64,000 nucleotides of DNA. Source: Cinnamomum chago (lineage: Eukaryota; Streptophyta; Magnoliopsida; Laurales; Lauraceae). The notes below the pieces were generated by a model that made no database searches, was not told the DNA's origin, and was given only the letters and a program-made list of their open reading frames with translations. Positions 14,065 to 30,243 of this stretch are shown piece after piece. The stretch's first letter is position 1; the number at the start of each line of letters is the position of its first letter. The stretch covers positions 34,320,001 through 34,384,000 of the forward strand of contig CP142460.1 of assembly GCA_038049695.1 (NCBI GenBank). Direction: 5' to 3'. Both the position numbers and the translations under genes were made by a program.

Positions 14065-15522
14065 AGGGGCCATTTGGAGATTCTAATCTAATTAATAAAA
14101 TCTAGTTAGATTACAGTCTAAAACAAAAGCTCCACCTTTTAAGTTCTAATTTACAGGGGGCTTTTACGAAAAAAATGAAACTTAAACCTTAATTAAATGA
14201 TTTTGCGGATCAAAAATATAAAATGACGATATAATTGTTAGTATATATTATTGGACGAAATCACCGCACTTGACGATATCATCAACTCAATTGACAATAT
14301 CGTCAATTGGTTGACGTCGTCAATCTTCATTGTAAAAAATGATATTTTGATCCATTTTTTTTCTACCTAATGATGGAAAGGTTATAAAAATCATTACATT
14401 TTGTATTCCAGTAGTCTTCCTTAAGTAGTCTCGGCCATCTTCCTTAGGTGTGTGGGTCTTATGCCTTGTTTCTATACATTTATCGCCTCAGTTCACATGA
14501 GTCTGAGAGTTCGTATTTGGAGCGCAAGGTGTTCGATGAAATGCCTAAATAAGAACTTTCTCTCAATTTGGTGGTGGCTTCGAGCGAGGGTTGAGGGGAT
14601 GAGTTTGGGTATGCTTTTATGAATTAAAGTTTGAATCCATTTATTTGGGAGACTTTCATAAGTTTTGATGTTTATGAGCAATACGTAGGGAGCCATATTG
14701 GGCAATCTTTGAGTAGTAAATATGAGATTTTCTCCTAGGTATTATTGTATTATTTGCGTGGAGTTTTAGATTGGAAGAGTGTTTTTTGTTTGATTAAATT
14801 GGAATCTTTGAACCAACTTTAAGAATGAATTTTACGGTGGATGGACTGTCAAACCCTTTTTCTTTGATGCATTCATAATCTCCTTTCGATTTTTTTTTTC
14901 ATTTGTTTGAAATGAATATTCATCTTTCTCCAAATTTTTGCATCATTACCTCCAAACCTTAGACAATTAGGCATGAAAACCATCAAAGAAGAAGAAAAGT
15001 TGCAGAAGGTTGACGATATCATCTCATCAACTGGATTGATGATATCGTCAATTGGGATAATTTTTTCCAAAAACATGTACGAACAATTATCTCGTCGTTT
15101 TATGTTTTTTTTTCAAAAAACTGTTTAATTATGATTTAAACTTAATTTTTTTTGTAAAAAATCCCAATTTACAATTAGTGTGTTTGATAAAATTATAAAA
15201 AAAATCACTTATTTCATGAGCTAATTGGAGCCCACCTTATAAAAACTACAGTGTAAATCCTCCATCTACGCCATTTTGGAGACTTATGAGGTTATTTTCA
15301 TCAACATAATTCTTGCATTGTCCACCTTTATCCATTTCCCTAAAAAACTCTAAAATAATAAGCATCCTTCCTTGGCTTATTTTTCTTAGAGGCAAAAAAT
15401 CTAATTTGTAAATAAACTCTAAAACTAGAAGATTAATTAGAGGTTTACCAAACACTCTAATGTGTAAATAAACTCTAAATCACAAAATAAAAGCTTATTT
15501 TTAGAATTATCAAATGGGACCT
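14065..15522. mobile_element. probable non-autonomous DNA transposon, hAT-like
   Basis: The ends form an imperfect inverted repeat: AGGGGCCATTTGGAGATT on the left against AGGTCCCATTTGATAATT on the other strand at the right, continuing into TCTAA in both (17 of 22 matched). Near-palindromic words of the TTGACGATATCGTCAA type cluster in a left block (14268-14330) and a right block (15008-15058), as transposase-binding subterminal repeats often do. There is no transposase frame. A target-site duplication is not evident, so the call is tentative. Confidence 0.35.
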
Positions 15523-17654
15523 TTGAAAGTACAAATTCTTATTACTGGCCACCTTGGTGACTAACAATCACTTAAATCTATAATTTTGAACTTGAATTGA
15601 GTTGTGCTAGTCTTTTAAACCTCATGTGCTTGCGGATACTTTATCTAGTTCTGCATGTTACTACCCCTTGTCCAAGCTAATCTTTGTAAACTAATTCTCT
15701 TATGGCATGTCATTGGCCTCAAATGTCGTATTATATTTGTTAGTTTGTGTGGTCTCAATCCATCAGATGATGTAATAAATCAATTAATTTCTTTATTTAT
15801 CATTAAAATCATGCTTTCTTTTCATGAGATGAATGATGTTTTATTACTTAATGCACATGACCAATACATATGACATGATGGTTCAAGAGATGAACCAGGT
15901 CTCATTAGTGTATTAGATGTGATATATGTATATGGATGAGATCCACATACGGGAGACATGTGTCACAAATCTTATACTTAAATATGTTCACAACCAATGA
16001 TGAGACTGGGCATCTCATCTAATAAGATTGCAGCACTTTGATCACTATGAGATAGTGTGATTTGTCTCGATCATCAGAATGTAAGATTCTTTATCATGGT
16101 GCTGGTACATTGAATGTATTGAAGGACCATGAGAAACACCTTATGGAATACTGTCTCGATTTTAAGGACTGCTCTCATAATTCCCTAGCAATAGGCTCTC
16201 AATCCTGAGACATTGATGAACTCAAGTTTCTGTCTATTCATTTGCTTTGTGTCACCAATGAGTGAGGTCAACTGTAGGTCAACACCTCGGTATCTTAGGT
16301 ACGTGGTGGTAGGACTGTGGGAAAATCCAATGGTCAAGATGGAATCTATCTATATTATCCCCTTGTGTCAATTAATTGATTTGTCATTAGTAAGTGCACA
16401 CCCATCTCGATTAAGAGTTAATTAGATGGTACTGATGATCACTGTGATTAATTAGGCACAAGGATAATAAGATGTGGATCTAAGATTGGATGAGGCAAAT
16501 TTATTCCAATTGATCCATGGATATTGATATAGGGGCTACTTGTGATAATTGAGAAGTTTAGGGTCTTCTTTGTAATATATTCCTAAGACTTGTAGTAATT
16601 GGAGTGCAATTGCAATTATATAGTGGTGTTATTTGCAATTAACTGTGAGCCCGGATTGCACATGATATGTGGGGTCGCGGTGTCCCAGTTGGAGCCAGTT
16701 TTTTATGGAATCCGTAGTGGTCCTCACACTAGCCCAGGTTATTAGAAAGACAATAATCATACTTGAACTCTAAATGGAAGGAATTAGAAAGTTACTATTT
16801 CTATTTGAAGTGGGACTCCTAATAGTGGTAATTATAAGATGTGGATCTACTAGTTGTTGTGGAAGTGTGACTTCTATAATAATTAGAAAGGAGAAAGTTG
16901 CTAATTGTTTTGGAAGTAGGACTTCTAATTAATTAGTAAGAGGAGGTTAGCAAAAGCTATAAAAGGGAAGCACCCCTTGGACGTCCCATACATGTAATCC
17001 ACGCCCAAGCTCCCCAATTGTGCAAGTTGCACAATTCCTTTTTTATTTCTCTTCTCCTCTCTCTTTTAGTTCCTTGGAGTTTCTAGTAGGGTTTTCTCTT
17101 GAAGTTTCCAACAATCTTCTTGAGAAAAGAGATCTGATACGGGTCATAGCATGGAAGGCTAAGAGGTCTTGGAGATCCTAAGTTTGCTTAAAGAAAGAGT
17201 TTCTTCATCAAGCAAGTCTTCTTTTCCATTAGAGCACTACCGTGCTCCAAAGGTATAATCTACTTATCTATTTGTTGTGGATTGTTTTTGGATGCATGGT
17301 GTTGCTGATTTCTATCTTTTAAATAGGTTTTATTGCTGTACATGATTGATGGGATGGAGGGATTGTTAGATTGTATGGTCTCAATCCATCAGTTGATGTA
17401 ATAAATTGATTAATTCCTTTATTTATCAATAAAATCATGCTTTCCTTTCATGAGATGAATGATGTTTATTGCTTAATGCACATGACCAATACATATGGCA
17501 TAATGGTTCATGAGATGAACTGGGTCCCATTAGTATATTAGATGTGATATATGTATATGGATGAGATCCACATACGAGAGACATGTGTCACAAATCTTAT
17601 ACTTAAAATGTCTTCACAACCAGTGATGAAACTGGGCATCTCATCTGATAAGGT

Positions 17655-19891
17655 TGTTAGGAATTTTGTAGATTGCAATTTGTTGGATGCATTATCATTC
17701 AAGCATCATTTGATTTACACACATATGCATTGTTTTAAGAAATCTTGAAATCTTATTTTATAATTGCATTGTTTTTAAGAGTTGTAAAAATATTGACTTA
17801 TGCATGTTTTGTTTTTAATCTTGGATGCATTTGTTTTAGAAAAGAGTTTTTAGAAATCAAGCAAGCCTTTGGTTTTAAACTATTGAATCATTTTAGGCTT
17901 TTTGTGTTTCATGTTTTTAAACATCTTAATTTGATTTAAAACATGTTTCCAAGCTTGATTTATTGGCCTAAAAAATCCTCTCCAAGAATAGCCTTCAAAT
18001 GTGGAAAAAATAGGATTTTTGGTCCCAGGCAGTTAACCTGCAGTGTGGCAGGTCGACCTGCCCAGGGACCCGGGTCGACCTACCACATTGCAGGTCGACT
18101 GGGTTTCTGAAGCTCCAACGGATCTTTTTATGACCGTTGTGTGGAGCAGGTCGACCCGGCCCTGTTGGCAGGTCGACCTGGGACTAGCCGTTGGGCATTT
18201 TTCTCTATAAAAATGAGTTCTTTCCTTTGCCAAAAGTTGAAAATTTTAAGGCCCTCCTTGAGGGGTTTTGAGGCAAATAGAAGGGAAATGAACTAAGGGA
18301 TGAAGGGGATCATTAGGAAAGCTAAAGCTTGGATTAATGAAGTTAAATCACCAAGTAGGCTCTACTTTCCTTAATCATATGTTTTCATGCTTTGTTTTAC
18401 TTTTGGTAAATCTTGTGTAGCATGATAAACTATGTATGAAGTATTGTGTCCTTAACATGTTTTATGTTTTGAGTTGATTTATTGTTTTGGATACAACACC
18501 ATTTGATTCAATCCAAGTAGTACTTTATCTTTGGTAAATCTAAGTAGATCATGTTAATGGAAGAACCTTTGAAATTATATGTAACATGATTCCTATACTT
18601 GGGTGAATCTATGGTTGTTGTTTTTCAACATAAGAAAATCACTTTCAAAACTATCTTATGTTTTGGATTCAACAACTTTACAAATCATATGTTTTCATGT
18701 TTTTGTTGTATCTTTGGTAAATCTTTAGTAGCATGTTAACCTATGATGTGTTGAGTCCTTAGCATGTTTTATGTTTTGAATTGATCTATTGTTTTGGATG
18801 CATCACCATTGATTCAATCCAAGTAGTATTTTATTTGGTAAATCTAAGTAGATCATATTAATGAAAGAATCTTTGAAATTATATGTAACATGATTCATAT
18901 ACTTGGTTGAATCTTTGGGTGTTGTTTTTCATCATAAGAAAATCTCTTTCAAAATATATCTTATGTTGTGGATTCAACAACTTTACAAATCATATGTAAA
19001 TTTGTTTTAAAGTTTCACAACTTGCTTTGCATTGATTGGTATATCAAATTCAAGTTGTATTTATAATTACATATGATTTGTCCCCTAATTTCAATCAAAT
19101 CTATTTTTATGTTTTATGAGCTACATTGTTGATTTGATTGACATCCCTATGCATCACATGTTTAGAGCTAATTAATTTCATACAACTTGTGAATCTTTGA
19201 CATCATTAACAAGTTGTTACTTTTAACATGTGACTTGCATTCTTTCCTCAATCATAAATGTTTTTATGAGCTAAACTTTCAAAAGCCTTAGGCATACATT
19301 TATGAGCTTTCATTTTCAAAATGATTGAGGACATCACACACACACACACATCATGTACTTTCATCTTTGCATTCATAGTGTGTGTGTATTAGATTTTCAT
19401 TTTCATATCCGCCTATTTTAGAGGCAAATGTAATGAGCTTAATTGAATCTCCATCAAGTGTATTATAGACACTAACTTAGTGAGATAACCAACCTTGTGG
19501 TTGAAGAGGTTATTGCTTAGCCTATAAAAGCATAATGTATAGGTTGATGTTAAGCCTTGAAAAACATCATTGTGAAGGTTATTGCTTAGCCTTGGAAAGC
19601 ATATTGTAAAGGTTATTGCTTAGCCTATTGAAAAACAAAAATAGTGGAAATCCGGTGGGGTGTTGGATCACAAGCCGGTAGTGGATGTAGGCATTGAGGC
19701 CGAACCACTATAAATCCTTGTGTGATGGTGCTTGCTTTGTGGTGATTGTTTTTGTTATGCTTCCGCATTTTGTTTGATAATCATCACTTGTGACTAGTTT
19801 ATGTTAAGAAGTTAAATTTGATTAAAATTGGTCATAATTGAAGCTCACCCTATTCACCCCCCGTCTAGGGTTCGGATCCCTAGGACTTTCA
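17655..19891 (+). repeat. B 5' LTR (2,237 bp)
   Basis: Starts TGTTAGGAATTTTG and ends GGACTTTCA. It contains a palindromic GGTCGACC island (about 18030-18190), a TATA box (TATAAAAAT, 18205-18213), a tandem duplication of about 300 bp (18372-18670 and 18679-18985), and a (CA)n run facing a (TG)n run near 19333-19390. Inverted-repeat pairs occur here too, for example CAATCAAATC at 19092-19101 with GATTTGATTG at 19131-19140. Confidence 0.92.
18205..18213 (+). promoter_or_regulatory. TATA box in the B LTR
   Basis: TATAAAAAT lies a few bases downstream of the palindromic island. The same arrangement recurs in the 3' LTR near 25489. Confidence 0.5.
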
Positions 19892-19893
19892 AT

Positions 19894-19905
19894 TGGTATC
19901 AGAGC
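19894..19905 (+). other. B primer binding site (tRNA-Met type)
   Basis: TGGTATCAGAGC, 2 bp after the 5' LTR end. Confidence 0.9.
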
Positions 19906-20039
19906 GGGTTACTCCATTTTAGGGCTTAACAACCCGGAGTTGATCCTTGCTAGATTAGAACCCTAGTGTTGTGTTTTATTGCATATCTTTGTGTTGATTT
20001 CCACTATGTTTAAAAATGGGATTTCCCCTAGCTTCTTTG

Positions 20040-21053
20040 CACCACTCTTAGACTTTTTCAAGTTATATCTCCAAGAGTTGGTGAGTCCTCAAGTGATCTC
20101 TCAAGGACATCCTTTTCAAGACCTTAGGTGAATCTTCATTGGTACACATTTAGACTAACCTTAAGGCCTTGATCCTCTCTAGACCAACCTATTCTTTTTA
20201 GTTATATCTTTGTGTTGGTCATGTTACATTTGCATTTTGTTTCTTTATAGTCACATCTTTTAAAATGCAATGTTTCTTTGTGATCATTTGATTTTGTCTT
20301 CATTAACTTTTAAAGTTATATCTCATGGTTCTCAAAATCCTTTGATTGCAATAATTTCATGATGGATTTGCATTTTGTTCATATAGTCATATCTCTTGTA
20401 GTGCATATCTATTCATGATCAATTGATTGTGATTACAAATGCTTTCATAGCTAGTTTTTTCATGATCAATTGATGTTGGAAAATCATTTGATGATTGTTA
20501 TAGTTAGATCCTTTTTGTAAATCAAATGATTTGAAGCAATTTAAGTTTTCCATTGATTTTCAAGTTATATCTCTTGGTATGGAAAATTTGTGAGTGTCTA
20601 TTGTTTTACAAATTGAAAATTTACAATAGTACACTTCTTGTTTTTCAAAATCACTTGCTCATAACTCTATAAATGATTCTTTGTTGGAATTTCAAATATT
20701 GAAGTGATTTGAAAAACTTTGGAAAATGTTCTAAGCTTTATTGGTGGTATTTATAGAAGCATTTTCCTTGAATCTATTTCCTTGTGCCTAATTATGATTA
20801 TATCATTTGGAAGGAAATAATTTTTACAAACAATTTGCATCTTTGCTCATTTAGTTACATTCTTTATGCAAATTGATTTTGATGTCTTACATTGCTTGGT
20901 TGGATATGGTTTCATTGATTTGCATGTTTGTGCCTAACTTGGTATATATTTTCATTAATGCAAATTGATGATTGTTTATGTGCTTTATAGTAAAATCTTT
21001 TGTTTTATTATCATTTGAGCCTAATAAGTACATATGTGATTTAATGTGATAAG
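20040..21053 (+). repeat. dyad array, left half, in the B internal domain
   Basis: Successive inverted-repeat pairs, each with different arms. Examples: GACCAAC/GTTGGTC (20182-20188, 20214-20220); TTGCATTTT/AAAATGCAA (20230-20238, 20262-20270); AAATCATTTGAT/ATCAAATGATTT (20481-20492, 20521-20532); TTTTCCAT/ATGGAAAA (20546-20553, 20579-20586); GGAAAATG/CATTTTCC (20721-20728, 20760-20767); ATTTCCTT/AAGGAAAT (20776-20783, 20811-20818); CAATTTGCAT/ATGCAAATTG (20831-20840, 20866-20875). Most loops hold a relative of AGTTATATCTTT. The one-gap pair GTTTTTCAAAATCACTT/AAGTGATTTGAAAAAC (20640-20656, 20702-20717) is the longest. There is no protein frame. Confidence 0.8.
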
Positions 21054-23060
21054 TGAAAGTTCATGCTATACTGATCTGAACTTGGACTTCCATGGCTGAT
21101 TTGGTTTTTCAAGTTTTTAAAACAAGAACACAGATCTGATTTTCCAGCCATGAATCATGCATAAAAACTCCATGAAATCATGATCAACATGTGTATAATG
21201 CAAGGAGATGATAGAGGACTAATACCTTGATGATATGAATGCCTCAAATCTCTGAAAAGAAAGCCTTCAAAGGTCTGGACTCAGCCTGCAATCAGCAATG
21301 TATGTTGCAGGAATTTCTGCAATAGCTTCTCCTTTGATCTTCTCTTCTATTCCACAACCTAATCTAATTGGCTTTGATTGTGGGATCAGAATATGGATTC
21401 CAAGAAGGGTTTTCTGAATCTACAATTTGTGGAAAAAGCCAGGACTTGATCTCCTCTCTCCAATGAAGAAAAAGAAGAGAGCAATGGCTGGGCGTGAGTT
21501 TCTCTCTTGTTGTCTTGGGCGGCCAATGGAGTTACAAGAACAATCCACGCCTAGGGTTTTTATTCCAGCACTTGTTTCTTCCTTGTTGCACGCCTAGGGT
21601 AGGGAGGGGTATATATAAATAGTTCTCATTCCTTTAAGAGTTCTATCTCTAATAGGAATGACCATCCCTAAAAATTAATAGCAACCAGCCACCTTAGTTG
21701 TGCAACACTTTCTAATTAAAGATACTAAAAATTAGTAAACTTTAATTATAGGAACTCTTACCCAAAGAGGAGTTCTTCCTTCCAAGTAAAGATACCTAGT
21801 TAAACTAGGAAACCTCACACAAGGGGCTCCCCTTATGGCTGGCCCACAAGATAGATAAACACACCATGGCCCACTAGTTAATAATTTAGCTAGAGTTAAA
21901 TTCATGTATGCCATCAAAAGCCTATTTGAATTTAAACTCAAAATTATTCTTCCACAAAAATTAATTCAACCACATATCATTTAATTAAATTAGGAAACCA
22001 TGCCAATATAGGAAAGTGGCTAGAAGAGGGACCAAAAGACATATTTGCCCTTGGCTCCCAAAATGACCAAAATGTCCATGCTAACCCCATAGCAACATTA
22101 AGATCATTTTAACCTTAACTCATTCCACTAGAGAGTTATGGTTGCACTCCAGGGACAAATATTAAATTGCAAATTAAGCTCATCATAAACTGACGATTGT
22201 CTTTGACCTACCAAGTACAATGACCATAATGCCCCTCTATGTAACATCCATAATCAAGTAGGTTAACCGATGTATTATCTACCTTCTTGATTACATCTCA
22301 TCCTTAGAACTTCATACCCTTGACTTAATCATCATCCGGATATCATTCTCTTGATCCAGGGAGCGACCCACAAGTTCAATATCCATATGGAACATCCATA
22401 TACTAAGATCTTAGATTCTGATGATTAATCGGATAATTCTAAGGGGACGATCATTCCATCACACGATGACATAAATTCCATATTGCATTTGCACGTCCCA
22501 ACTAATCAAGCCCGAGTACCCAAAACACAGAGCTGTTGACCCATGAACAGGATCTCACCCATAGTGAATTAAAGTACAAGAACTCGACTTCGTCAGTTCA
22601 TCCACAAATGCTCAAGATTAAGAGCACTGGTCACTCAGTAGCAAGAGGTGACTTGATCTCTCTCTGTGATAGTACTATTTTAGAGATCACACCTTCAAGT
22701 GGTCCTGTTCAATGCATGACACATGCACTAATGAGATAAATCCGGAAAGGCCTCCGTGACTAAGGTAAGTCACCCTGAATACAGGAGAGTATCTCATTAT
22801 AACTTATACCAAGATGAAGTGCCCAACTCCATCTCTCAGTTATGAACGAGTTTATTGTTTTAAGTGTCCATGACTCAGACCTTACTGTGTGTAGCCACTA
22901 CACACCTAAGTCATTTACTAGAAAACAATGGGCCTTACACAACCATACATATACACAAGCAGAAAGATAAAGATGTCATTCTATTAAATAACCAATAAAT
23001 ATCCAGTAACAGAGATGTAAGTGCAGTCAGTGGGCTTTAGAGCATACACCAATCCCAACA
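21054..23060 (-). mobile_element. solo LTR E (2,007 bp), minus orientation, inside B
   Basis: Read on the minus strand it starts TGTTGGGATTGGTGTATG and ends GCATGAACTTTCA. The flanks ATAAG (21049-21053) and CTAAG (23061-23065) match at 4 of 5 bases, consistent with a slightly diverged duplication. It interrupts the dyad array of B. The minus-strand TATA-like sequence TATTTATATATA lies near 21610-21625. No internal retroelement sequence is attached. Confidence 0.75.
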
Positions 23061-24330
23061 CTAAGTTCATTTGGTATAGACCTCATATCCTTTTCCATTG
23101 CATTGTAAGCTTAGTACATTTGCTAAGAGTGGAGATGTTACATGATAGATTGTCCCTCTAACTCCATACCTATTTGTGCTTGCATAGTTATATCCTTTAT
23201 TGATGATATGGTATGAGTTAGATCTTGAGTGTTGATTGATCCTCTCTATGCAAATGTCAAATTGTTCTATGTATGGTTGTGATCTTAGTTATATTTGAAG
23301 AAACCATACTAGAACTAAAATCCATCCTCTATGCACTCTAGTCATATCTTTTTGGATGGTTATGATGTTAATTCATGTATATTCTCTAAGTGATATCATC
23401 CTTATACATGTTTCAACTTCATAGTAGTGTTCTTGATCATATAAAACTCTTTGAAATCTATTCCTCATATTTCTATATGTTTGATGGATATCTTAGATGT
23501 TGAATTCATATGATTTTGACACTTTGGAAATTGCATGCATTACAAAGTTATATCCTTTTGCATTGCAATTTATCTTGTTCATCACTATGCTCATTAGTTA
23601 TATCTTTAAAAGTGATGAATATCCATTTATGATGCTTGATGGAATTTTGTGTTTGTCACATCCTTGCTCTTTATCATGTTGTCAAATTCAATTGGTTTCT
23701 ATTGGTAAAATTTTCGATTAATTTGATTTCTTGTGAATGTGATAGACCATGTGTACATTGGTTTGAACTTGATAGTTATATGTTTTCATTCCATGTCACA
23801 TTCCATTAGCATCATAAATTTCATGTTTGCCACCTCTTTTGGTCATATAGGTATATCTCATGACCACCATGTTTATGTATTCATAATCTTGGTTGGTTAT
23901 TAGTTGAGGTTGGCTTCATGTTTGAATTTCATTTCACTCATCTTGCACTTTAATAAGTCATATTTATTGATTGAATGAAATGATTTTCAAATCCTTCATA
24001 GCATATGTTTTCCATAGTTAGATTATTTGATGCTATGATTAATAAACCCCATTTCATCATGGATAGCTCTAATTTGGATTTTTCCTAATAGGTATATTTT
24101 TAAATCCATTTTAGAGTGATTGCTTTAAAAGACTTATCTTTGAATCTCAATTGGTATTCTTTGTTTTTCCAATTGGTATCCATGATTGCTTTTCTCATTG
24201 ACCTTGCTCTCTTTTGGTAATTTGATCATATTGTGCTCTATTGTTAAATGAATCTAATCCTTTCCTTGAAGTTGACCCTCATTTGGTTAAACCATCTTCT
24301 TCTTGCATCTAATAGTTAAATCTTTGTCAA
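23061..24330 (+). repeat. dyad array, right half, in the B internal domain
   Basis: The pattern continues beyond E. Pairs include GTATGGTT/AACCATAC (23271-23278, 23302-23309); CCATCC/GGATGG (23322-23327, 23354-23359); CATGTATA/TATACATG (23374-23381, 23403-23410); AAATTGCA/TGCAATTT (23528-23535, 23564-23571); TTCATCACT/AGTGATGAA (23578-23586, 23611-23619); GAATGTGA/TCACATTC (23735-23742, 23796-23803); TGGTCAT/ATGACCA (23840-23846, 23860-23866); ATTTCATT/AATGAAAT (23926-23933, 23974-23981); CATAGCAT/ATGCTATG (23997-24004, 24030-24037); and a 15-nt pair with two mismatches at 24067-24081 and 24102-24116. Loops again carry AGTTATATCTTT-like words. Confidence 0.8.
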
Positions 24331-24357
24331 AAGTTTGACAAAAGGAGAGAATGGATT

Positions 24358-24937
24358 GAGGGGGAGTGTAAACCTTCTTAGGAAGTATTAGTTTTGATCA
24401 AATTGACCCTTGGATTGCCTTTGAACCCTTAGAGATAACTTCCATACATGAAAACCTGTTATGTATTTCATTTTCGATTTCTTATGATTAACAGGTGCTT
24501 CTAAAGGTATTTTCCTTGTTTCATGTGTGTAGGTACCTTTGCAATTTAATGTCAAAGGGGGAGAGAGCATTCAAGTTCTCAAAAGGGTGAAGAGAATGTC
24601 CAAGCTTCCTAAGGGGAGGTTTTGTATGATCTTCTACAGGGGGAGAGAATACATACCTTGCCAAAGGGAGAGAGGGGCATGGTCAAAGGGGGAGAGCAAA
24701 TAGAAGAAAGAAAGCTTGGGAGCTAAAGAAGATGCTTGGCTAAAGAAAGAAAGATTGAAGAATGATCAAGCTACAAGCATCAAGAAGAATGAAGAAAAGA
24801 GCCCAAGAGCCCAAGCTAAGAGAAGCATCCAAGAAGATTTCAAGACTTGTCCAGCTGAGGGGGAGCTGAAGACTAAGTGTGTTTATTCAGTGGTGAGTGT
24901 GGTGAGTGAGTTGCCATCAAATTGCAAAGGGGGAGAT
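24358..24937 (+). repeat. array of polypurine-tract-like G-rich runs ending in the B polypurine tract
   Basis: GGGGGAG or GGGGAGG words occur near 24358, 24554, 24611, 24638, 24668, 24684, 24857 and finally 24927-24937 (AAAGGGGGAGA), which directly abuts the 3' LTR. Only the last is positioned to prime plus-strand synthesis. The stretch between is purine-rich and carries a short open frame of low complexity that I do not regard as a gene. Confidence 0.75.
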
Positions 24938-25552
24938 TGTTAGGAATTTTGTAGATTGCAATTTGATGGATGCATTATCATTCAAGCATCATTTGATTTA
25001 CACACATATGCATTGTTTTAAGAAATCTTGAAATCTTATTTTATACATGCATTGTTTTTAAGAGTTGTAAAAGTATTGACTTATGCATGTTTTGTTTTTA
25101 ATCTTGAATGCATTTGTTTTAGAAAAGAGTTTTTAGAAATCAAGCAAGCCTTTGGTTTTAAACTATTGAATCATTTTAGGCTTTTTGTGTTTCATGTTTT
25201 TAAACGTCATAATTTGATTTAAAACATGTTTCCAAGCTTGATTTATTGGCCCAAAAAATCCTCTCCAAGAATAGCCTTCAAATGTGGAAAAAAATAGGAT
25301 TTTTGGTCCCAGGTAGTCAACCTGCAGTGTGGCAGGTCGACCTGCCCAGGGACCCGGGTCGACCTACCACACTGCAGGTCGACTGGGTTTCTGAAGCTCC
25401 AACGGATCTTTTTATGACCGTTGTGTGGAGCAGGTCGACCCGGCCCTGTTGGCAGGTCGACCTGGGACTAGCCGTTGGGCATTTTTCTCTATAAAAATGA
25501 GTTCTTTCCTTTGCCAAAAGTTGAAAAATTTAAGGCCCTCCTTGAGGGGTTT

Positions 25553-28535
25553 TGTTAGACCCCGACCCAGACCAATCCTATTAGTGTGTGATTAGTATGT
25601 GTTTAGTCCTAAGTGGGTTTAGTTATTGTTGGGTTAGAAGTGATTAGTTTTAGTCTTGGATATAGCTTTGGTAATTTTGAGAACGTTTAATATTGGTTAG
25701 ACACACTCAGGATGGCCTGAGTGCACGTGTGAGCTTGGGAAGATCGTATCGATTTCCGTGTGATTGTGATTTTGATTTCATTTGATTGATATTTCGACGT
25801 GTTACAACTTTCGTATTAAGCCCATTCATGTTTGAAGCCCAAAAACCCAAGTTTTGGCCCAAAGAGGGTAAAATTGTCTTTCTTGCACAAATCTGGACAC
25901 AATTTTCGAGATCTCAAAACCATGTCAAAAATATACTTTTTGGAAACTAGATATTTCGACGATCATTTTATCCTTCTTCGTCGAAGTCATCCGAGGCCCA
26001 CAAGACCATGTTTTAGTCACTTCAAGTTCAAGCCAAATGGGGCCCATGAGTCATCACTTAATCCCCTTTCCCCTCCCTTTTCATTCATTTCCCAATCTCT
26101 GCAACTTTTGAGTCTAGGGCAAGAGAGAAAACCTCTTTTCTCCTTCATCTTCCTCACTTGGTTTGATCTAGCTAGAGAGCTCCAAAGGAAATTCTAAGAC
26201 TACCATTTTCTTCATCTCCTTGCAAGCTCGCCATTGATACAAGTTTCTTGAGTTTTCAAGTTGGGCAAGAGCTCCTTTTTCTTCCCTCTCTCTTGTTTGA
26301 CCTTCTCTAGGTAAGAGCTTCAACCCATATTTTTCATGGAGTCATTTTAGTTCCTTAAGATCATGTTTTTCATGTTTTCAAACCCTATTTGGAAAATGGG
26401 TTCCTTGTTTCCATTTTGAGTGAGTTTTGTGTGTTTTCTTGTTTTTGCTTGTAGTGTGAGATTAGCTTGTGTGAAGAGCTTGGAGGAGAGTGTTTAGCAT
26501 TTGGGCAAGGCAAGTAATCTCTATAGGATCATTGTGCATGTTTATTTTAAGCTACATTGTTGTTTGAGAAGTTTTGTACATGAATATGTTTACAAGTTTC
26601 ATACTCATGATTTCCTTTGTGTTGGATGTTTAAAGTTTGGAAAAATATATGTTTTGTCCCTTGGAGAGTATGTAGACTCAGGGAATATAAGTGGAATGAG
26701 AATGAATGGAAGGGAAGAAGAGAAATGTGAAAAATCTGTGCTGAAACGCATTCCCGTGCACTGGCGGTCAGCTCGCGGCTAGCCGCCTGTGCCCACTGCG
26801 GCTAACCGCAGGCTGACCGAACCAAGCGGTTCCTTTTCCAGAAGCTAGCATTTTTGCCTGGGTTCAGCGGTCAGCCCACGGCTAACCGCCAGTCCCACTT
26901 GCGGTTAACCGCAAGCCAACCGAGGATTTCGGTTCCTTTTCCAGAAGCTGACATTTCGACCATGTTTCACGGTCAGCTCCACGGTTAGCTAGCGGCTAGC
27001 CGCCTCATCCCATCACGGCTAACCGCTGGCCAACCGCGCATGCGGTTCCTTTTCCCGAGAGCTAAACACAGAATTTCATTCCAGCGGTCAGCCTGGCGGT
27101 CACCTTGCGGCTAGCCGCCAGACCCCAGTTCGGCTAGCCGACACCTGACCGCGAGGTGACCGAATTTGACAAGTTTCCTATTTTGAAGAGTTTTGCAAGA
27201 AGGAAAAACTAGAACATGTTAAGTGACCTCTAGCCTGATTTTGTGCACTCGAAACCCAAAATGTCTTTGAACTTCTGGGGCACCAATCCTTTCCTAAAAT
27301 TCTACTATTTGGGTCTCAATTGCACAAAGATAAATCAAAGGTCCTTGCTTGTGCTTGATAGGCCTTGTGTTCGTGCTTTGGTTTTTGATATGATGAATAT
27401 CATCGTGAACTTGTTTTGAAGTGTTAGTACAAGCTTGTTTTGAAGTTTTGTTAAGAAAAAGGGGATCACTTCCTAACCGTGTTTTGCATAAATATTATGC
27501 CTCGTGCTAGTCGTGCTCGTCGTGTTGTGATAAGTGATTTCCCCCTTTTTATCTCGACGTGTTTGATCGTGCTTCGCGTGTTTTGTGCATTCATGAATTA
27601 AGTAAACACCACTGAGCTTAGACTGCCCTTTCGGTTTGATCCACTGTCTGGGGGTCTTTAAACATGTGGACTGTCTGCAGACTGGTCGTGTATTTATTAC
27701 ACATCGTGCGTGTCCGGTTCCGCGGCCGGAATTCCCGTCTTTGTGGGAAATCGTGTCGTGCTTATATTATGTATATCGTGCTTGTCGTGCGTGCTTGCTC
27801 TTTTCATTATATAAATGATAGAGAAAGGATGGGCTCTTTGTGGTTGATAACTATTCATGATATATTATGTACTCATGCTAGATTATTTTGTATCTCAGCT
27901 TTGTTCGTACTCTTGAAAATGTATCTCAACTTTGATAGTACTTCATACCAAAGATTTGCTCACATGTTTTCTCTAAATGTTATTGTTCATGTTCATGCCT
28001 AAATTGATTACCTGCCAAACCGTCGTGTTTGACCCTTGTTTATTGGTGCCCAGGTGCAGGAGACGTTGCCTTTGAGGAGGAGCGTCAGGAGGAGGCTTGT
28101 GAGCCAACTCCCGTGAGAGAGTGGCAGCCCGACGATGTCATTTAGATGTCGGTCTGGTTCTCGAGTTTCGTCACCCTTAGTCTTGGGGTTTCTTTTGACT
28201 ATTTTGAGATTGTATTGACCTTTATTGGTCTCTTATGGGTCGTACTAAACTTAACTTGTTTTTGTATTAGTTCTATAACTTGAATATTAATGGGAATGCT
28301 TGATAGCTTCTTTCTATGATACCATGCCTTGTGATCATTTGTTATGGCACCCAAATGTTTTGTTGGGCTCATCTTGATGTGTTTTGCTACACGCTTCCGC
28401 ATACTTGTACGTGTGAGCCAGATTCCGCGTGTCTTTGGGAATCCTCACCGCGGGAACCTGTGGGAAAGCAATTAACAACACCGAATGCAATGGAACACTC
28501 GTCGCGGGCCCGGGATCCGTTCCGGGGTCGCGACA
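25553..28535 (+). mobile_element. solo LTR C1 (2,983 bp) of the G1/G2 gypsy family
   Basis: Starts TGTTAGACCCCGACC and ends GGGGTCGCGACA, flanked by GGTTT at 25548-25552 and 28536-28540. It is the same LTR as in G1 and G2, but with no internal sequence attached. It contains a palindromic hairpin island at about 26755-27170. Confidence 0.93.
26755..27170 (+). repeat. palindromic hairpin island in C1 (GGCTAGCC type)
   Basis: Four units of about 100 bp. In the first, 26766-26786 and 26798-26818 form 21-nt arms pairing at 18 of 21 positions around an 11-nt loop; each arm contains GGTCAGC/GCTGACC and CGGCTAGCCG or CGGCTAACCG words. Units are separated by a spacer close to GCGGTTCCTTTTCC. Confidence 0.85.
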
Positions 28536-30243
28536 GGTTTTGAGGCAAATAGAAGGGAAATGAACTAAGGGATGAAGGGGATCATTAGGAAAGCTAAAGC
28601 TTGGATTAATGAAGTTAAATCACCAAGTAGGCTCTACTTTCCTTAATCATATGTTTTCATGCTTTGTTTTACTTTTGGTAAATCTTGTGTAGCATGATAA
28701 ACTATGTATGAAGTATTGTGTCCTTAACATGTTTTATGTTTTGAGTTGATTTACTGTTTTGGATAAAACACCATTTGATTCTTTCCTCAATCATAAATGT
28801 TTTTATGAGCTAAACTTTCAAAAGCCTTAGGCATACATTTATGAGCTTTCATTTTCAAAATGATTGAGGACATCACACACACACATCATGTACTTTCATC
28901 TTTGCATTCATAGTGTGTGTGTGTGTATTAGATTTTCATTTTCATATCCGCCTATTTTAGAGGCAAATGTAATGAGCTTAATTGAATCTCCATCAAGTGT
29001 ATTATAGACACTAACTTAGTGAGATAACCAACCTTGTGGTTGAAGAGGTTATTGCTTAGCCTATAAAAGCATAATGTATAGGTTGATGTTAAGCCTTGAA
29101 AAACATCATTGTAAAGGTTATTGCTTAGCCTTGAAAAGCATATTGTAAAGGTTATTGCTTAGCCTATTGAAAATCATAAATAGTGGAAATCCGGTGGGGT
29201 GTTGGATCACAAGCCGGTAGTGGATGTAGGCATTGAGGCCGAACCACTATAAATTCGTGTGTGATGGTGCTTGCTTTGTGGTGATTGTTTTTTTTATGCT
29301 TCCGCATTTTGTTTGATAATCATCACTTGTGACTAGTTTATGTTAAGAAGTTAAATTTGATTAAAATTGGTCATAATTGAAGCTCACCCTATTCACCCCC
29401 CCCTCTAGGGTTTGGATCCCCAGGACTTTCAAAGGTTTCAGGACTTTGATCACTATGAGATAGTGAGATTTGTCTCGATCATTAGAATGGAAGATTCTGG
29501 ATCACGGTGCTGGTACATTGGATGTATTGAAGGACCATGAGAAGCACCTTATGAAAAATTGTCTCGATTTAAGGACTGCTCTCATAATTCCCTAGCAATA
29601 GGCTTTCAATCCTGAGACATTGATGAACTCAAGTTTCTATCTATTCATTTGGTTTGAGTCACCAATGAATGAGGCCAACTGTAGGTCAACACCTCGGTGT
29701 CTTTGGTACGTAGTAGTAGGACTGTATGAACATACAATGATCAAGATGGAATCTATCTACATTATCCCCTTGTGCCAATTAATGGATTTATCATTAGTAA
29801 GTGCGCACCCATCTCGATTAAGAGTTAATTGAATGGTACTGATGATCACTGTGATTAATTGGGGCTCAAGGATAATAAGATGTGAATCTAAGATTGGATG
29901 AGACAGAGTTATTCCAATTGATCCATGGATATTGATAGAGGGGCCTACTTGTGGTACTGTGGAAGTTTAGGATCTTCATTGTAATTTATTTCTAAGACTG
30001 GAGTGCAATTGCATTTATATAGTGGTGTTATTTGTAATTAACTGTGGGCCCGGATTGTACATTAGATGTGGGGTCGCGTGTCCCAGTTCGAGCTAGCTTT
30101 CTAAGGAGTCCCTAGTGGTCCCCACGCTGGCCCAAGTATTAGAAAGATTCTATTCTTATTTAAACTCTAATAGGAAGGAATTAGAAACTTACTATTTCTA
30201 TTTGAAGTGAGACTTCTAATAGTGGTAATAGTAGCATGAGAAG

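Follow-up and report, generated by a model that had tools for sequence, protein, structure and literature searches.

A serial array of hairpins with a recurring, oriented loop word in a noncoding LTR retrotransposon of Cinnamomum chago

Dispersed packaging signals of RNA viruses are described, in the accessible parts of the literature, as many stem-loops that differ in sequence and share a recognition motif in the loop (PMC6281560; for core-protein sites of hepatitis B virus, PMC7612645). Among retrotransposons with long terminal repeats (LTRs), large retrotransposon derivatives (LARDs) are defined in the available part of a review by an internal region above 4 kb (PMC9033089), and conserved RNA structure in LARDs has already been published (PMC7215508, as far as its text was available). 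Terminal-repeat retrotransposons with a GAG domain (TR-GAG) can move in Arabidopsis, according to the part of the source at hand (PMC8704663). By what route the RNA of noncoding LTR elements enters particles made by others is an open question. In this study, we describe element B, a noncoding, non-autonomous, LARD-like LTR element of Cinnamomum chago, located in a window of 64,000 nucleotides (contig CP142460.1, positions 34,320,001 to 34,384,000, forward strand) to which all positions refer unless another sequence is named. We confirm that the interior of element B carries a real array of hairpins, and that the combination of hairpin and loop word goes far beyond chance.

The array lies in two blocks, 19895-21056 (block A) and 23061-24362 (block B). 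A solo LTR, E, interrupts the array (Table 1), as the first-pass annotation had noted, and the two blocks are contiguous in 19 of the 20 genomic copies L009-L028; the sole exception is L028, whose second block gave no match. Perfect stems that reach 7 bp or more and close loops of 8-70 nt number 23 in block A and 17 in block B, as against means of 7.4 (maximum 13) and 7.9 (maximum 16) in 100 shuffles. For stems of at least 8 bp the counts were 14 vs 2.0 and 11 vs 2.3, so that shuffled sequence, a control already suggested by the first-pass annotation, gave far fewer stems. The firm combinations of word and dyad number 14-16 and not, as stated there, more than twenty. Some stems of the array overlap one another, and of the 40 that reach 7 bp, chance accounts for about 15 (shuffled means 7.4 and 7.9).

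This last number is what speaks for chance pairing in AT-rich DNA, selected by eye, and it is the position of the loop word that refutes such an explanation. The word AGTTATATCTTT, with up to three mismatches allowed, has 27 copies in the two blocks together, and a fixed register was defined by a gap of 6-18 nt between the 5' arm and the word and of 0-8 nt between the word and the 3' arm. The longest stem across the 27 words averaged 7.26 bp, compared to 5.15 bp with exchanged flanks (0 of 100,000 permutations). In-register stems of at least 7 bp were present at 14 of the 27 words vs 1.08 with flanks exchanged (0 of 20,000), and those of at least 6 bp at 16 vs 1.96. The in-register rate was thus 52% at words and 5.6-6.4% at arbitrary anchors in the same DNA; an LTR stretch gave 0 of 15. 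An unsupervised scan for the most recurrent 12-mer of each segment picked TAGTTATATCTT and AGTTATATGTTT in the array, with dyads at 8 of 13 and 5 of 16 sites; in 41 other segments of the window, the word chosen in the same way had 0-2 dyads apiece. With these permutation and segment controls, the probability left to chance pairing is negligible. Even so, most stems do not hold the word close to the second arm, contrary to what had been claimed for most pairs.

A position weight matrix built from 22 of the 27 word sites found, at a score of at least 9, 11 matches per block on the sense strand and none on the reverse strand of either; the word is therefore oriented. Self-comparison of the array gave 13 same-strand matches (0-6 in shuffled controls), the best with 74% identity over 78 bp. 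With a single clear internal duplication (20219-20296 vs 20357-20431, 74% identical), a tandem-repeat origin of the whole array was rejected. The arms are mostly private to each pair, as first stated, except for this duplication and for TTTGCAT, which recurs in several arms. The excess of stems extends beyond the interior, as two LTR stretches (the second, 24370-25500, being partly interior) have 13 vs 2.0 and 14 vs 1.6 stems without the loop word. The LTR is dyad-rich also at 18380-19400, with other recurring loop words (ATGAGCT and AATCTTT, four times each); serial dyads may therefore extend across the transcribed part of the element.

Relatives of element B carry the same layout. The sibling L042 consists of LTRs (99% identical), primer binding site (PBS), an open reading frame (ORF) with a zinc knuckle and then the array, which is 77-78% identical to that of the window element in its first half and 94% in its second. 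Stems at its 18 words exceed permutation (0 of 50,000), and 10 of the 18 words are in register vs 0.88. In-register dyads occur likewise in L082 (4 of 11 words), L083 (11 of 19), L084 (6 of 15), L085 (9 of 16) and L079 (4 of 7). The last of these is a deletion derivative in which the first array part is fused to the purine-tract region and 7 words are kept. Permutation reached these values in 0-17 of 5000 trials for L042, L079 and L082-L085, copies that are related and not independent. The ORF of L042 matches zf-CCHC above the Pfam cut-off, and no Pfam Gag domain was found in it. Its ratio of nonsynonymous to synonymous substitution is 0.29 in the best comparison (L042-L059), in which it is under purifying selection, and 0.35-0.67 in the other five pairs, with L068 frameshifted. 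A further relative encodes gag and pol, with Copia-type Gag, integrase and RVT_2 domains.

Comparison of copies supports a constraint on the arms and on the fixed positions of the motif, although the copies are related and the statistics therefore overstate their independence. Twenty copies have a mean pairwise identity of 95.7% in block A, and their variability per cell is 0.0073 in arms vs 0.0325 in loops in block A and 0.0241 vs 0.0522 in block B (leaving out the first dyad and, in the second block, L015, L019 and L023 with their non-homologous tails). The difference is smaller when stems are defined on each copy in turn, namely 0.0138 vs 0.0238 and 0.0160 vs 0.0327 at A/T sites and 0.0200 vs 0.0215 and 0.0177 vs 0.0357 at G/C sites. 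In block A, 32 distinct substitutions fall in arms where 46.9 would be expected (10 of 2000 simulations), and in block B 34 where 42.6 would be (184 of 2000); these and the per-copy counts were made without rows L015, L019 and L023. In a larger copy set, variability is 0.0355 at fixed and 0.0657 at free positions of the motif, 0.0765 in the loop 5' of it and 0.0267 in the stretch 3' of it. Information in the motif correlates negatively with variability across copies, with rho -0.74 over 20 positions (-8 to +11), a value inflated by the choice of sites for their likeness to the word, and -0.62 (p 0.033) inside the word. Substitutions in or beside the arms damage pairing less than random placement of the same changes (24 of 28 dyads above 0.5). 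The mean rank for sparing of pairing is 0.663 in array dyads (23 of 27 above 0.5; 0.771 where there are at least four substitutions) and 0.554 in distant control stems (10 of 16; 0.516), with p = 0.006 for 23 of 27 vs 10 of 16. This comparison used 16 of 32 distant stems, the rest overlapping real arms, and 27 of the 28 dyads; haplotypes with gaps in arms were skipped in both rank analyses.

Our preferred, if tentative, reading is that in sense RNA the interior of element B forms a cluster of recognition hairpins, to which a Gag-like protein provided in trans would probably bind. Hairpins that bind protein are favoured in that the word is in sense orientation and sits at a fixed place in the loop, arms and motif are constrained, and a frame with a zinc knuckle adjoins the array in L042. 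Each stem, of 7-12 bp and with its own sequence, would close a loop of about 20-28 nt in the sense transcript, and the word AGTNANATCYTT would be held at a fixed place in the loop close to the 3' arm. The differing arms would prevent mispairing between neighbours, and many hairpins could fold side by side. A Gag-like RNA-binding protein not made by element B would bind the repeated word many times per molecule, and the bound protein would draw element B RNA into a particle built by relatives. We infer that the array is transcribed and folds inside cells, that a protein binds it and packaging follows, and which partner takes part. Layout and constraint would also fit hairpins that serve the RNA without Gag, either by protection from decay or small-RNA silencing or by dimerisation through a near-palindromic loop word. 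The word AGTTATATCT is in fact nearly self-complementary (8 of 10 positions), but the motif table does not show joint conservation of the positions due to pair, and we consider a role without Gag unlikely.

Several observations weigh against the recognition hairpins proposed above. When 3' arms were shuffled among copies, no more than 2 of 27 dyads (20365 and 23996) lost pairing to a significant degree, with a mean z of -0.16 overall and 14 of 27 dyads in the right direction; among distant stems, 1 of 29 was significant (29 of 30 scored, sampled from 32). One-sided G-U and A-C changes are equally frequent (26 vs 26), so that G-U pairs reveal no strand polarity. Folding energies are ordinary, as the mean z of -1.03 and -0.72 in the two blocks compares with -0.90 in solo LTR E and -0.89 in a gag ORF. 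Sense RNA with 50-nt flanks has a mean pairing probability above 0.5 in 17 of 23 dyads, which speaks for the hairpins, but antisense RNA folds equally well (20 of 23). The whole 12-nt word is no less variable than the loop in the 20 copies (0.0301 in block A, 0.0572 in block B), the distant-stem control itself lies a little over 0.5, and dyad 23840 is disrupted in most copies (rank 0.254). Pieces L056 and L076 of the gag-pol relative have no in-register dyads; the array is therefore no general packaging signal of the lineage. An RNA role in particular is weakened by the ordinary energies, the equal antisense folding and the missing G-U polarity.

Concerning the pairing itself, up to 43 copies show 2 double Watson-Crick and 4 double mismatching events; single events number 118 for mismatches and 34 for G-U. 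One of the two double Watson-Crick events is a change from T-A to A-T at dyad 23996, common to four copies. Genome-wide, the outer pair of this dyad is T-A at 1,144 sites vs up to 1,275 one-sided sites, which, judged by eye among roughly 100 places listed, were all but one T.T. Pairing in the array is tolerant, and covariation is not established. The first-pass annotation had concluded that pairing, not sequence, was kept; this is not shown, because covariation is significant in 2 of 27 dyads, folding energies do not stand out from those of controls, and G-U and A-C changes are equal. Divergence of arms without compensation, which it had regarded as telling against that conclusion, is seen in part (2 double vs 118 single events), in copies whose low divergence makes this a weak test. 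General covariation and strong thermodynamic structure were not seen, and a known structured RNA was rejected, as Rfam gave no match that reached the gathering score within 15000-30000. A comparison of folding energies between own and chimeric arms was set aside, since dyads defined on the window bias its outcome; the own arms of relatives paired worse than chimeras.

The scarcity of covariation also favours a mutational origin, by which template switching or fold-back copying during reverse transcription at the recurring word would have written inverted copies that young copies retain. The T.T state tolerated at dyad 23996, with genomic sites about as numerous as those of T-A, the stem excess in the LTR without the word, and arm conservation that is largely at the sequence level point in the same direction. 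It leaves unexplained, however, the shortage of arm substitutions in both blocks, the constraint on the fixed positions of the motif and the dyads common to L042 and the window element, and we judge such an origin to be rather unlikely. The array might also act as DNA and offer directional sites to a protein of chromatin or recombination that requires inverted repeats on either side of the word. Perfect Watson-Crick arms, the lack of G-U polarity, the like folding of both strands and the oriented word would agree with this; the varying 5' gap and loop length do not, and with no known protein matched and no tie to insertion or expression we hold it to be improbable.

If recognition hairpins are the right reading, the array could be a dedicated multivalent packaging module, a dispersed-packaging-signal system that a noncoding retrotransposon lineage evolved for itself. 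Its stems would be orthogonal, its single loop word would be recognised by the zinc-knuckle protein of the L042-type sibling, and a protein-less element would spread by capturing the particle of another, while the autonomous gag-pol relative does without; in this full form the proposal is speculative and, on present sequence evidence, doubtful. In L042 (1148-1369) the array starts within the apparent end of the gag frame, as if it took the place of pol; the RWIPK found there we take to be the motif at the end of the gag frame. The gag frame itself (L042 1-1194) contains one word that has an in-register stem of 8 bp.

Element B spans 17655-29431 and is a complete LTR element with the target site duplication AAGGT at 17650-17654 and 29432-29436; its PBS is presumably of the tRNA-Met type. 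Its 3' LTR starts at 24938 and not near 24369, and 24363-24937 therefore still belongs to the interior. Coding capacity for gag or pol is absent, the longest ORFs overlapping 19894-24937 having 74 and 75 amino acids. The element is probably of Copia type, an assignment made through its relatives as reverse transcriptase and integrase of its own are absent. Upstream of the 3' LTR, six GGGGGAG tracts lie within 24360-24937, where one purine tract would need fewer. Inverted repeats of the GC-rich GTCGACCT, located at 18050-18180 of the LTR and thus upstream of its TATA-like box, form a palindrome cluster of a different type. The ACCTG...CAGGT hairpin that precedes the purine tracts has a recognisable counterpart in L076 of the gag-pol relative, with TTATATCTCTTAT in the loop.

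Table 1. Features of element B and of its hairpin array (positions in the window; dyads given as 5' arm/3' arm)
Feature	Position	Strand	Remarks
5' LTR of element B	17655..19891	+	TGTTAGG...TTTCA ends; TATA-like box 18206
PBS TGGTATCAGAGC	19894..19905	+	
Dyad ACTCTT/AAGAGT (6 bp)	20044..20078	+	word 20061
Dyad GACCAAC/GTTGGTC	20182..20220	+	word 20200; identical arms in L042, L082-L085
Dyad TTGCATTTT/AAAATGCAA	20230..20270	+	word 20249
Dyad GATTTTG/CAAAATC	20290..20339	+	word 20314
Diverged duplicate (74%) of 20219-20296	20357..20431	+	word 20385; significant covariation (as 20365-20408)
Dyad AAATCATTTGAT/ATCAAATGATTT	20481..20532	+	word 20502; in L042 AATCATTTGT/ACAAATGATT
Dyad TTTTCCAT/ATGGAAAA	20546..20586	+	word 20563
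Dyad GGAAAATG/CATTTTCC	20721..20767	+	word lost; kept in L083, L085 (AGTTATATTTAT)
Dyad TATTTCCTT/AAGGAAATA	20775..20819	+	word 20796
Dyad CAATTTGCAT/ATGCAAATTG	20831..20875	+	word 20853
Dyad ATTTGCAT/ATGCAAAT	20918..20965	+	word 20940
Solo LTR E	21054..23060		within array; flanks ATAAG/CTAAG
Dyad GTATGGTT/AACCATAC	23271..23309	+	word 23287
Dyad CATGTATA/TATACATG	23374..23410	+	word 23389
Dyad AAATTGCA/TGCAATTT	23528..23571	+	word 23546
Dyad TTCATCACT/AGTGATGAA	23578..23619	+	word 23596, exact
Dyad TCATAGCAT/ATGCTATGA	23996..24038	+	word 24016; ACATAGCAT/ATGCTATGT in L074, L077, L078, L080
Dyad TGGATTT/AAATCCA	24075..24108	+	word 24090
Dyad ACCTGTTA/TAACAGGT	24454..24496	+	not in word array; related ACCTG...CAGGT behind pol in L076
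Last of several purine tracts (AAAGGGGGAGA)	24926..24936	+	5' of 3' LTR
3' LTR of element B	24938..29431	+	split by nested insertion at about 25554-28535

The genome contains 4,356 exact junctions of LTR end and PBS and 7,210 junctions of purine tract and LTR of the element B type, both shared by several families. Fifteen junctions were read from the PBS side, some picked for lying in tandem arrays; one was of the window type, three of the L042 type, three of one gag-pol family, six had other Copia-like gag frames and two were unclassified (L066, L069). Ten read from the 3' side comprised five with array sequence (L074, L077-L080), one of the gag-pol family (L076) and four others. The element family also forms head-to-tail arrays of constant period at C10:6676280-6729627 (about 5.27 kb), C5:42005033-42016224 (5.29), C8:50219869-50266354 (about 5.09 kb) and C1:59407086-59427469 (4.94 kb), which resemble tandem Cassandra arrays as far as these are described in the accessible text of PMC7215508. 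Four purine-tract junctions with a spacing of 3,400 bases lie at C1:39943246-39953462, where L079 is located.

The gag-pol relative belongs to a lineage which we take to be the SIRE/Maximus-type Copia elements. It agrees with element B in LTR end, PBS and purine tract and differs in that its pieces L056 and L076 hold no array. With LARDs, element B has in common two LTRs, target site duplication, PBS, purine tract, a long noncoding interior and high copy number. The LARD label of the first-pass annotation fits in these respects and in the non-autonomous nature of the element, but the interior (19892-24937), without the 2 kb of solo LTR E, measures about 3.0 kb and stays below the 4 kb of the definition in the available part of the review (PMC9033089). 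A serial layout of hairpin plus loop word was, moreover, not among the published LARD features found in the accessible portions of the sources. TR-GAG elements, as outlined in the part of PMC8704663 at hand, resemble the sibling L042, which has a pair of LTRs and a single ORF whose zinc knuckle is of the Gag type; L042 differs by an ORF without a Pfam Gag domain and by the hairpin array behind it, and element B has no such ORF.

If the word is a binding site, element B would provide a well-defined RNA ligand in repeated form, and its genome a candidate for the protein that binds it, so that purified parts could be used for a test; the packaging-signal idea would then extend from RNA viruses to plant retrotransposons. 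If instead the dyads are mutational, the array would be an example of how inverted repeats arise in reverse transcription. Like the dispersed packaging signals, in so far as the available texts describe them, the array combines several stem-loops, differing stems and a common loop motif. It differs in that its hairpins sit close together within noncoding retrotransposon sequence and have no known binding protein; as to the RNA that encodes the packaging protein, the array stands behind the CCHC ORF in L042 and has no in-register counterpart in the gag-pol pieces. A search of open-licence literature, by titles and abstract openings, found no serial hairpin-plus-loop-word array in a retrotransposon. 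Measured against the accessible parts of these sources, RNA structure in LARDs and loop-motif packaging signals in viruses are already known, and what is new here is a serial hairpin array in a retrotransposon.

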